From Beijerinckiaceae bacterium (GTDB lineage Bacteria > Pseudomonadota > Alphaproteobacteria > Rhizobiales > Beijerinckiaceae): DNA of 64,000 nt. The stretch spans positions 212,720-276,719 of the forward strand of contig WSYC01000006.1 in assembly GCA_009773635.1 (NCBI GenBank), given 5' to 3'. The notes under the pieces are model-generated. The model saw only the letters and a list, made by a program, of their open reading frames with translations. It had not been told where the DNA came from and did no database searches. Positions 29,207 through 32,396 of the stretch are shown one piece after another (position 1 is the first letter of the stretch; each line of letters opens with the position of its first letter). The position numbers and the translations under genes were made by a program.

Positions 29207-30379
29207 ATGTCGCGTTGGACGCAAGATCGGAACGTTTCGGCGCAGGCCGGGGCGACATGCGCCACGGTGACATGCGCCACGGTGACATGCGCCACGGTGA
29301 CATGCGCCAGCGCGATGGCCGGTTTCCGTGTTGCAAGTGCCGCCATCAAGATCGCGGGTGTTTCCCTGCTGGCGCTGACACTCGCCAACTGCGCCAAACA
29401 GACCAGCACCCGCACAAGCCATAACTCCCGCGAGATCGGCGCGTTTTCCGATCCGAAATACGGCAAGGCCAGTCCGCGTGTCGTCGGCCTTGATGACGAT
29501 GCTCCCAAGGGCGGCGGCCGTTATCAGGTCGGGCGGCCCTATCAGGTCGCGGGCCGCACCTATGTCCCGCGCGAGCGGCCGGTCGGCTATACGGTGTCGG
29601 GCAATGCGAGCTGGTATGGCATCGCCTTCCATGGCCGCAAGACTGCGAATGGCGAAGTCTATGACCGCAACTCGATTTCCGCCGCGCACCCCACCATGCC
29701 GCTGCCGAGCTATGCGCGCGTGACGAACCTCAACAACAATCATTCGATCGTGGTCCGCGTCAATGATCGCGGCCCCTATCACGGCGGGCGCGTGCTCGAT
29801 GTTTCCGAACGCACCGCCAATATGCTGAAATTCCGGCACCTCGGCACGGCGCGCGTGAAGGTCGACTATCTCGGTCCCGCAGCGCTGGCCGGTTCGGACG
29901 ACACACGGCTCGTTGCATCGCTCAACACGAATGGCCCGGCATCCGCGCCGATCGGCGGCAATGCGCCGACGATGGTCGCCTCGATCGAGCCGGTCGCCAC
30001 CGCGCGGCCGCAGATGACAGCGCTGTCCTATGCGTCGCAGACGGGCACATCGCCGCGTGCGGTGCCGGTGTCGCGGCCCGCCCCGGAAAATGCCGGCGTC
30101 ATCACCGAGACGAAGTTCGTGCCGGTTTCGAACCTGCCGGTTCCACCGGCGCGACCGTTCGATCTTGATACCATCGGTGGTGCAGCGACGCCGGTTACGC
30201 CGGGGGGCGTCAGCACCGGCCAGCGGATCAGCCGCGGGGAAATTCTGCCCCCGGCACGGCCGACGGATCTGTCGTTCGTCGAGATGGGTGGCGGGTTCTC
30301 GCGGTTTGGCAAGGGGCACCCGTTTTCGCGCATGGGCGAACTTGAACTGCGCTCCGACGTGCCGCAGAACGGGCGCTGA
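29207..30379 (+). CDS. rlpA: RlpA-family septal ring lytic transglycosylase, lipoprotein
   Basis: 390 aa. The double-psi barrel RlpA domain spans about 125-220 (GNASWYGIAFHGRKTANGE, ISAAHPTMPLPSYARV, VRVNDRGPYHGGR), with the catalytic His and Asp of the family. A hydrophobic segment ending LALTLANC near residue 63 is a lipobox of the kind seen in alphaproteobacterial RlpA, so an envelope lipoprotein is likely. The C-terminal 170 residues are Pro/Ser/Thr-rich with no SPOR domain visible. Oddly, about 36 residues including the repeat TCATV precede the signal segment; ATG 29315 is an alternative start without a ribosome-binding site. RlpA cleaves denuded glycan strands at division sites in species studied. 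Confidence 0.88.
   Translation: MSRWTQDRNVSAQAGATCATVTCATVTCATVTCASAMAGFRVASAAIKIAGVSLLALTLANCAKQTSTRTSHNSREIGAFSDPKYGKASPRVVGLDDDAPKGGGRYQVGRPYQVAGRTYVPRERPVGYTVSGNASWYGIAFHGRKTANGEVYDRNSISAAHPTMPLPSYARVTNLNNNHSIVVRVNDRGPYHGGRVLDVSERTANMLKFRHLGTARVKVDYLGPAALAGSDDTRLVASLNTNGPASAPIGGNAPTMVASIEPVATARPQMTALSYASQTGTSPRAVPVSRPAPENAGVITETKFVPVSNLPVPPARPFDLDTIGGAATPVTPGGVSTGQRISRGEILPPARPTDLSFVEMGGGFSRFGKGHPFSRMGELELRSDVPQNGR
29254..29309 (+). repeat. 15-bp tandem repeat, 3.7 copies, inside rlpA
   Basis: The unit GACATGCGCCACGGT is repeated exactly three times and followed by 11 bases of a fourth copy. The unit length keeps the frame and encodes the pentapeptide TCATV. Copy-number change would lengthen or shorten the region before the signal segment. 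Confidence 0.9.
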
Positions 30380-30459: not shown

Positions 30460-31749
30460 ATGTCGATAGCGCAGATCGGAAAGGTTCTGACAGTGCTGGC
30501 CTTCGTGCTGGCTGCAGCGCCCTTGCGCGCGCAGGACAAGGCCGCAGATAAGGGGGCCGCCTTCGACACCAGCGCCAAGCAGGCCTTCCTGTTCGATTAT
30601 TCCACCCGTTCCGTCTTGTTCGAGCGTGAGGCGGACAAGCGCATCGCACCGGCGGGCCTTGCAAAGCTGATGACGGTTGCGATCGTCTTCCGTGAACTCA
30701 GGGAAGGGCGGCTGAAGCTCGAAGACGACATGGTCGTCTCGACCGACGCCTGGCGGCGCGGCGGGGCGGTTTCCGGCAATCCCAATATGCTGCTGACGCC
30801 GAACCGCGTCATCAAGGTCGCCGAACTGCTCAACGGGCTGATCGTCGGCGGCGCGAATGACGCGGCGCTGGCGCTCGCGGAGAATATCGCCGGCAAGGAA
30901 GAGCGCTTCGCCGGGATGATGAGCGCTCATGCGCGCACGCTGAAACTGACGGGCTTCGAGTTCCGCACCGCGACGGGCCTTGCTGCCGAAGGCCAGAGCG
31001 CGACGCTGCGTGACCTCGTGGCGCTGGCGGCGCATATCATCGAAACCTACCCCGAATATTACCCGCTGTTCGCGCAGCGCGACATGGCGCTCGGCAAGAA
31101 CCGGCAGGTGAGCCGCAACCCGCTGCTGACGATGGACATCGGGGCGGATGGGCTCATCACCGGCTATGCACCGGAAACCGGGCAAGCGCTGATCGGCTCC
31201 GCGACGCAGGAGGGGCGGCGCGTCATCGTCGGCGTTGCCGGGCTCGAAACCGTGCAGGAACGTTCGCTGGAGGCCCGCAAGCTGATCGAATGGGGCTTCC
31301 GCCGCTTTGAGGTTCGCACGCTGTTTGCTGCTGGTACCGAGATCGGGGATGTGTCCGTCTATGGCGGTGCCAGTGGCTCCGTGCCTGTCCGGCCGGCGCG
31401 TGATATCCGTCTGCCGCTGCTGCGCGGCACGAACGACGGTACGGTGCTGCGGCTCGCCTATCGCGGACCGGTGCCGGCGCCGATCGCGGAGGGGCAGGAA
31501 ATCGCCCGGCTCGAAATCATGGTCGATGGCCGCGTGATCCAGAATGCGCCGCTGGTGGCCGCCCGTGCCGTGCCGCTTGGCGGGGTTGTGGATCGCGCGC
31601 GCGATGCGGCACTGGAAGCCTCCCGGCAGGTTGCGCGCAACGGGCTGTACTGGGTGCTCGAAAAGATGGGCTTGCGCTCCCGACAGCCGGAAACCGGCAA
31701 GACGCCGGAATCCAGCAAGGCCCTTGAAGCCAGCAAGGCGAAATCGTGA
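30460..31749 (+). CDS. DacA/PBP5-family protein with degenerate active site
   Basis: About 429 aa, exported (signal peptide near 1-27 ending LRAQ). Fold and length match D-alanyl-D-alanine carboxypeptidases: catalytic-like domain to about 290, then the PBP5 C-terminal beta domain and a terminal amphipathic/helical anchor region. Yet the three motifs are altered: the SxxK motif is GLAK (Gly66, Lys69), SxN is GAN (Gly131), and KTG is ITG (Ile233), in otherwise family-typical surroundings (FRELREGRLKLEDD, AWRRGGAVSGNPNMLL, NDAALALAENIAG). Hydrolysis of the pentapeptide stem is not expected. ATG 30460 follows GGGGAGG. Its GTGA end overlaps tmk. A structural or regulatory envelope role is inference. 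Confidence 0.88.
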   Translation: MSIAQIGKVLTVLAFVLAAAPLRAQDKAADKGAAFDTSAKQAFLFDYSTRSVLFEREADKRIAPAGLAKLMTVAIVFRELREGRLKLEDDMVVSTDAWRRGGAVSGNPNMLLTPNRVIKVAELLNGLIVGGANDAALALAENIAGKEERFAGMMSAHARTLKLTGFEFRTATGLAAEGQSATLRDLVALAAHIIETYPEYYPLFAQRDMALGKNRQVSRNPLLTMDIGADGLITGYAPETGQALIGSATQEGRRVIVGVAGLETVQERSLEARKLIEWGFRRFEVRTLFAAGTEIGDVSVYGGASGSVPVRPARDIRLPLLRGTNDGTVLRLAYRGPVPAPIAEGQEIARLEIMVDGRVIQNAPLVAARAVPLGGVVDRARDAALEASRQVARNGLYWVLEKMGLRSRQPETGKTPESSKALEASKAKS

Positions 31750-32396
31750 GTGCGCGCGGCCTGTTTCTGACCTTCGAGGGTGGCGAAGGCGCGGGCAAGT
31801 CGACGCAAATCCGGCGGCTGGCGCGGGATCTCGAAGCGGCAGGCCATACCGTGCTTGTCACACGCGAGCCGGGCGGCACCCCCTTCGCCGAAGCGATCCG
31901 GGGGCTGTTGCTCGGGGCGGGGGCCTCGGAAGATGCGCTGACGCAGGCGCTGCTGTTCGCCGCTGCGCGGCGCGAGCATATCCGCGCGCTGATCGCCCCG
32001 GCGCTCGCCGCCGGGCATATCGTGCTCTGCGATCGTTTTGCCGATTCCACGCGCGCCTATCAGGGTGGACGGCTGCCCGAAGCCGAATTGGCCGCGACGA
32101 TCGCGCTCGCGACCGGCGGTCTTTTGCCCGACCTGACGCTGCTGCTCGATCTGCCGCCGGAGGCCGGTCTCGCACGGGCGAGGGCGCGCAGTGCCGCGAC
32201 TGATACCTTCGAGCGCGCTGACCTCGCGTTCCACGCCGCTGTGCGGGCGCGGTTTCTGGCGCTGGCGAAAGCCGAGCCGCAGCGCATCGCCGTGATCGAT
32301 GCCAGCGCCGACGAAGCCGCCGTTGCCACCGCCGTCCGGTCAACGGTTGCAGCACGGCTCGGCTTGCCCGGAACGCCCGACGGGCAGGGCGCGTGA
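31746..32396 (+). CDS. tmk: Thymidylate kinase
   Basis: Phosphorylates dTMP to dTDP. 216 aa, normal length. P-loop FEGGEGAGKSTQ near residue 10, the TREPGGTPFAE motif near 39 and the DR(F/Y) segment LCDRFADSTRAYQGG near 95 are all present. GTG 31746 overlaps the previous stop by 4 nt. It is followed with overlap by holB, an arrangement common in proteobacteria. Confidence 0.96.
   Translation: MSARGLFLTFEGGEGAGKSTQIRRLARDLEAAGHTVLVTREPGGTPFAEAIRGLLLGAGASEDALTQALLFAAARREHIRALIAPALAAGHIVLCDRFADSTRAYQGGRLPEAELAATIALATGGLLPDLTLLLDLPPEAGLARARARSAATDTFERADLAFHAAVRARFLALAKAEPQRIAVIDASADEAAVATAVRSTVAARLGLPGTPDGQGA

Follow-up and report, generated by a model that had tools for sequence, protein, structure and literature searches.

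In the window, as we call the 64,000-nt stretch of Beijerinckiaceae bacterium contig WSYC01000006.1 analyzed here, one gene encodes a protein that belongs to the PBP5/DacA (peptidase S11) family, as judged by its sequence and predicted fold, and whose key catalytic residues have all been replaced. We consider it somewhat probable that this syntenic orthologue of PBP5/DacA has turned into a membrane-anchored pseudoenzyme, retained for binding or positioning during peptidoglycan growth, with catalysis left to active paralogues. The loss of catalysis itself is well supported by the sequence, and comparison of aligned orthologues showed that the PBP5 active site has eroded repeatedly and in an ordered way at a single syntenic locus within one bacterial order. 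PBP5 is the textbook enzyme for trimming stem peptides. If true, such natural, repeated and ordered erosion of the active site in a protein that is nonetheless retained would mean that PBP5 acts beyond cutting, an issue raised and left unsettled by laboratory mutants such as S44G; the Hyphomicrobiales series of intact, lysine-less, serine-less and gene-absent lineages would allow the second function to be separated from the first. It also cautions that family membership alone is a poor ground for annotating a carboxypeptidase or a beta-lactam target.

The gene (P0001, 429 amino acids; positions 30460–31749, forward strand, as are all features below) lies, as the first-pass annotation had placed it, downstream of rlpA, which encodes an RlpA-like lipoprotein/lytic transglycosylase (29207–30379, from its open reading frame (ORF) and translation), and upstream of tmk, which encodes thymidylate kinase (31746–32396, from its ORF); both neighbor names are our assumption and follow that annotation. 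The dacA stop and the tmk start overlap by 4 nt. This neighborhood is widespread: within the flank lengths available, a tmk match was found downstream in 202 of 209 orthologue rows (44/45 lacking the KTG lysine and 158/164 intact) and an rlpA match upstream in 183 of 209 (42/45 and 141/164, respectively).

The ORF is uninterrupted, and its product was identified by Pfam, structure alignment, AlphaFold2 and Foldseek. It passed the curated Pfam cut-offs for Peptidase_S11 (E-value 1.6e-49; 169 bits against 27.6) and PBP5_C (E-value 9.4e-16; 58.2 bits against 21.2), the latter spanning residues 283–372 (31306–31575), so the earlier description of a full-length PBP5-like protein with its C-terminal domain was borne out. 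When the window protein alone was scored against the NCBIfam DacA/DacC/DacD equivalogs, it fell below the cut-offs of NF007445 (195 of 765 bits), NF008059 (190 of 694) and NF008489 (189 of 610). A signal peptide region (residues ~1–24; 30460–30531) was recognized by eye. The nearest solved structure by sequence is Pseudomonas aeruginosa PBP5 (4k91; E-value 1.6e-63), and the AlphaFold2 model (mean pLDDT 88.3, pTM 0.82) also had 4k91 as its best solved Foldseek match (E-value 7.9e-38; TM-score 0.91 by target length and 0.74 by query length). The model contains a C-terminal helix at residues 376–402 (31585–31665), presumably a membrane anchor as in other PBP5 family members. Alignment to solved PBP5s assigned residues 66, 131 and 233 to the SxxK serine, the SxN serine and the KTG lysine. 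Where an active serine DD-carboxypeptidase has SxxK, SxN and KTG, the window protein has GxxK, GAN and ITG, and the codons read directly from the DNA agree with those first proposed: GGC for Gly66 (30655–30657), GGC for Gly131 (30850–30852) and ATC for Ile233 (31156–31158). The accompanying statement that all three motifs are lost holds for the key residue of each and not for the remainder, since Lys69 of SxxK (30664–30666), Asn133 of SxN and Thr234-Gly235 of KTG are retained. Arg268 (31261–31263), which by alignment takes the position of PBP5 Arg248, is also present.

The same-genus genomes were then compared. An orthologue was found in 16 of 17; the seventeenth (G005, 83% complete) yielded neither a dacA nor a tmk match, and because tmk is missing there too the region is probably unassembled and gene loss in this genome is unsupported. 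Lys233 is gone in all 16 orthologues (replaced by Ala in seven, Met in four, Leu in four and Ile in one), Ser131 in 11, and Ser66 in four, namely the window protein (Gly), L013 (Ala), L014 (Gly) and L016 (Gly). In all 16, by contrast with these replacements, Lys69, Asn133, Thr234, Gly235 and Arg268 are retained. Thus the three-residue loss is real and not special to the window's species, as the lysine is missing throughout the genus and the nucleophile from a quarter of it, and losses recur in other families. Among the observations that the first-pass annotation had named as overturning its reading were intact motifs in sister species and sequencing errors. No genus member carries all three key residues, while in other genera most of the scored orthologues have them. 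An error in sequencing these codons was ruled out because several genus genomes lose the same sites and the lysine is variously Ala, Met, Leu or Ile; the copy in G000 that matches the window protein at 100% identity comes from the window's own assembly and gives no independent confirmation. Reading frames are open across the aligned domain in the 16 orthologues; the matches in L008 and L012 have one TGA each, located where the frames run out at the C terminus. Five genus members named among the matches listed (L033–L037) are metagenome-assembled genomes, one of them Rhizobiales bacterium PAR1, which NCBI places in unclassified Hyphomicrobiales.

Beyond the catalytic residues, the genus proteins are conserved and locally changed. 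Of 61 columns with at least 95% conservation among intact orthologues, 50 remain at least 90% conserved in the genus, and the 11 altered columns are 66, 108, 131, 137, 141, 162, 209, 218, 233, 241 and 255. In addition, 29 residues that are rare among intact orthologues are fixed (≥93%) in the genus. Seven of them fall within residues 104–117 (VSGNPNMLLTPNRV; 30769–30810; hypergeometric p = 2.7e-5 against a background of ~355 positions, for a stretch picked after inspection of the data). Position 108 within it is Pro in 16/16 genus orthologues versus Ser in 158/164 intact ones. AlphaFold2 confidence is lower at residues 101–110 (mean pLDDT 66).

To place these losses in the order, orthologues from Hyphomicrobiales were scored at the same positions. 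The query's own copy (L001), a truncated sequence (L217), one with unresolved bases (L222) and two with 10-base fillers (L227 and L228) were excluded before counting. Removal of identical cores left 211 rows, and removal of paralogues L002 and L003 left 209. This is a non-random sample: the named loci are the top 80 matches to an alignment with eroded members in it, the rest are top matches or were hand-picked across genera and families, and the E-value cut-off of 1e-50 disfavors badly eroded copies. Within it, 164 rows are intact and 45 lack Lys233; 30 of the latter also lack Ser131 and seven lack Ser66. Sorted by pattern on the 211-row set (whose 166 intact rows include L002 and L003), the 45 comprise 12 with both serines kept, 26 that lost only Ser131, three that lost only Ser66 and four that lost all. 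Lys69, Asn133, Gly235 and Arg268 are each retained in 44 of the 45. Thr234 is retained in 30, and the 15 losses all lie outside the genus.

Several lysine-less DacA proteins from other genera (L109–L112, L090, L103, L075 and L079) share the rlpA–tmk position with the window protein. The Mesorhizobium and Aquamicrobium orthologues have AAN for SxN and AVG or VVG for KTG, that of Falsochrobactrum has AAN and ATG, that of Chelatococcus AGN and STG, and that of Ancylobacter MTG. The SxN serine is gone in all of this set except L079. Unlike the window protein, they keep the nucleophile serine, and the KTG threonine is missing as well from L109–L112 and L090. The lysine is missing from genomes of further families as well, for example L196, L201, L205, L206, L210 and L211. 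In orthologues from other alphaproteobacterial orders, 67 of 67 rows keep all three key residues; these rows comprise 27 top matches plus 40 chosen among the matches listed for an intact query, a choice that favors intact copies, and Fisher's test of 45/209 against 0/67 (p = 1.6e-6) ignores phylogeny and sampling. Separately, the histidine that follows KTG (residue 236 of P0001) occurs in 63/67 rows outside Hyphomicrobiales and in 7/164 intact rows within the order, and the active site in this order may have changed before any catalytic loss. An apparent DacA–Tmk fusion in L222 was ruled out because unresolved bases (X) lie at the junction of the open frame, and the row was discarded.

The number and order of the losses were estimated by parsimony. 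On an IQ-TREE tree built with the motif columns excluded, the lysine, the SxN serine and the nucleophile changed 13, 8 and 7 times, respectively, with at least seven of the lysine changes forced by well-supported branches; an earlier FastTree tree gave 10, 8 and 6. The IQ-TREE tree came from a quick search and carries a long-branch warning for L205, L190, L203, L214 and L206, with L214 joining L216. None of the 164 rows that keep Lys233 lacks Ser131 or Ser66, and erosion therefore appears to begin at KTG: by comparison, the lysine is lost first, and both serines may go later. Lysine-less branches make up 23.9% of the tree length, and all seven independent nucleophile losses fall on them, which has a chance of ~4.4e-5 if losses are independent and spread by branch length, a rough figure given that four of the seven sit in one genus. 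Some SxN losses share a tree branch with a lysine loss, and there the tree sets neither before the other. Two further rows keep Lys233 and have lost Lys69 of SxxK (L083 and L178, the latter also without Asn133). Because of these rows, inactivation may also have entry points other than the KTG lysine.

Selection on the gene was estimated with IQ-TREE codon models (GY+F3X4). Across the 16 genus orthologues, omega is 0.094 for dacA, 0.087 for tmk and 0.060 for rlpA. In a subset in which three of five members lack the nucleophile serine (L013–L017), dacA is at 0.072 and tmk at 0.055; in L005–L007, L009 and L010 the values are 0.034 and 0.057. Nine Mesorhizobium-type orthologues without the lysine and the SxN serine gave 0.057 (tmk 0.053, n = 8), compared with 0.051 (tmk 0.087, n = 14) for 16 intact Methylobacterium-type rows and 0.040 (tmk 0.081) for nine intact Bosea-type rows. 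Constraint on dacA is thus strong in every set, whether intact or lysine-less. The dacA/tmk ratio of omega is approximately twofold higher after loss (~1.1 in the genus), the L005–L010 set excepted, and under midpoint rooting the mean root-to-tip path is 1.01 for lysine-less rows versus 0.74 for intact ones. Since the lysine-less paths are longer and the genus omega relative to tmk exceeds that of two intact clades, some modest relaxation took place. Pairwise Nei–Gojobori estimates over all pairs (medians 0.56 and 0.52) suffer from saturation at larger distances, and in the least diverged bin (dS of 0.1–0.3) the medians are 0.058 for seven lysine-less pairs and 0.125 for 33 intact pairs; our conclusions rest on the codon model. 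The proposal that selection acts on a non-catalytic protein, as opposed to decay, accordingly stands with that modest relaxation added, given the omega close to that of tmk, the open frames and the 50 retained columns, and on these sequence measures the window protein has the marks of a conserved pseudoenzyme, with catalytic residues gone and purifying selection ongoing.

The locus can also be found without the gene. No dacA match at an E-value of 1e-50 was obtained in 49 of 248 genomes in the family search and 39 of 297 in the order search. When 20 dacA-less genomes were checked for tmk, 17 possessed it, and in 15 of these, from several Hyphomicrobiales genera and families (L259–L261, L263–L265 and L267–L275), tmk is preceded by an rlpA match, and nothing matching dacA lies between the two. 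The rlpA–tmk gap is ~1.3 kb in L264 and L271, where an open frame runs on from rlpA. The remaining two of the 17 are L262, which is eroded, and L266, with neither rlpA nor dacA in the stretch around tmk. Lineages therefore have three states at this locus, an intact PBP5, a dead PBP5, or no gene at this place, and dacA can become dispensable, as it is absent from the rlpA–tmk locus in other genera. Such absences, together with the longer paths of lysine-less rows and the repeated nucleophile losses in the genus, fit an explanation that we consider unlikely, namely slow decay, in which the activity became redundant beside two active S11 paralogues, the site is drifting toward deletion, and the frame is held by coupling to the essential tmk. 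The 4-nt overlap would supply that coupling; however, coupling holds a frame and not amino acids, and against decay stand omega values of 0.034–0.094 in the lysine-less sets, the family-invariant columns retained in the genus, and an altered stretch that is fixed in all 16 of its rows.

The paralogues named in that explanation were examined directly. The window's genome has three S11 genes, and the two beside P0001 (L002 and L003) share the Peptidase_S11 domain with it; they differ from it in having intact SxxK, SxN and KTG motifs, and their matches to P0001 run no further than residues 319 and 283, short of PBP5_C or in its early part. Across the genus, the three motifs are complete in 26 of 26 S11 paralogues examined, of 33 matches above the cut-off. 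A swap of paralogues was ruled out because the gene is the syntenic orthologue, as the downstream tmk indicates, and the examined paralogues are intact. An S13/PBP4-type carboxypeptidase as the replacement enzyme was likewise rejected, as a PF02113 search of the 17 genus genomes gave partial matches only, which by their coordinates lie on S11 genes with the exception of one fragment in G001.

The pseudoenzyme reading favored here would run as follows. The starting point is an alphaproteobacterial PBP5/DacA carboxypeptidase, in which loss of the KTG lysine comes first, as the comparison shows, and the serines may follow. The pseudoenzyme would still be exported, its C-terminal helix would tether it to the inner membrane within the growth or division machinery, and it would act by binding and not by cutting. 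Its likeliest job would be to occupy or shield stem-pentapeptide ends and thereby tune where the two active S11 paralogues trim. We propose these ends as the ligand because the whole genus retains Lys69, Asn133, Thr234, Gly235 and Arg268 in the old cleft; a pure protein–protein docking role would be next best. The cleft is not preserved everywhere, given the Thr234 losses outside the genus, and the retained residues may be structural only.

Precedents in Escherichia coli make a non-catalytic PBP5 plausible. The available text of PMC4916385 describes PBP5(S44G), whose substitution aligns with Gly66, as worsening shape defects, and PBP6a as seemingly inactive in cells, with activity five times lower in vitro, and possibly protecting pentapeptides. 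Both have the PBP5 fold and little or no carboxypeptidase activity in cells, as proposed for the window protein; they differ in that S44G is a laboratory mutant and the window protein has lost three key residues naturally (PMC4916385). The same text concludes that normal E. coli shape needs enzyme activity and that dead PBP6a(S66A) is without effect. Compared with P. aeruginosa PBP5 (4k91) and E. coli PBP5/DacA (1nzo), low-molecular-weight class C PBPs of family S11, the window protein likewise has both Pfam domains, a full-length (predicted) fold, a C-terminal helix and an rlpA neighbor, and differs at the nucleophile serine, the SxN serine, the KTG lysine and the Ser108 position. Among relatives, the parts of the reports available state that an Agrobacterium tumefaciens DD-carboxypeptidase gene, dac, is synthetically essential with loss of the group-3 LD-transpeptidases (PMC11527210) and that Sinorhizobium meliloti has four annotated serine DD-carboxypeptidase genes (PMC7327166). 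A search of open-access titles and abstract openings found no paper on dead PBP5 orthologues in Hyphomicrobiales.

The strong conservation of a dead protein, and the repetition of the same path by its relatives, suggest that PBP5 has a second job besides cutting. It is possible, though we hold this broader scenario only tentatively, that the rlpA-linked PBP5 of Hyphomicrobiales already had a second, non-catalytic function before catalysis was lost, and that this function alone held the gene once other S11 enzymes covered the chemistry, after which the lysine and then the serines would have been lost lineage by lineage. The window protein would be the end state, fully dead and still constrained, its rebuilt stretch binding peptidoglycan stems or proteins of the growth zone.

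If the protein were instead a docking factor for RlpA or division proteins, the old substrate cleft would be uninvolved, an arrangement that we judge quite improbable. The upstream rlpA match in 42 of the 45 lysine-less rows and the retained PBP5_C domain and helix are as expected for such a factor, and the available text of PMC9712689 places rlpA beside dacA in E. coli too; the text consulted on P. aeruginosa RlpA, however, names PBP7 and not PBP5 among its partners. The neighborhood also accompanies the intact enzyme (141/164 rows for rlpA and 158/164 for tmk), so the dead form is not singled out, and every genus orthologue retains Asn133, Thr234, Gly235 and Arg268 of the cleft. Because the rlpA–dacA neighborhood is old and common to intact orthologues, position says little for a special scaffold role. 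Least probable of the explanations weighed is an enzyme of altered chemistry in which SxxK alone (Ser66-Lys69) acylates slowly, for example as a sensor, in the 38 of 45 lysine-less rows that have the serine, a few species having lost it: the nucleophile does outlast the SxN serine (38/45 versus 15/45) and Lys69 is kept in 44/45, but PBP5 carboxypeptidase activity is considered to require the KTG lysine, position 66 of the window protein is not a serine, and Lys69 persists even in 7/7 serine-less rows, so its retention needs no nucleophile.

Two minor observations concern the locus itself. L262 (positions 28–1404), found later and left out of all counts, is a highly diverged orthologue in which Asn occupies the nucleophile site, SxN reads HAN and KTG is missing; it is possibly akin to L206, with which it shares a family code and similar losses. 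In the window, the probable true start of rlpA is the ATG at 29315, right ahead of a lipobox-like LANC recognized by eye. A short repeat at 29255–29305, also seen by eye (ATVTC repeated in translation), falls in the 5'-terminal part of the longest rlpA frame, ahead of this probable start.
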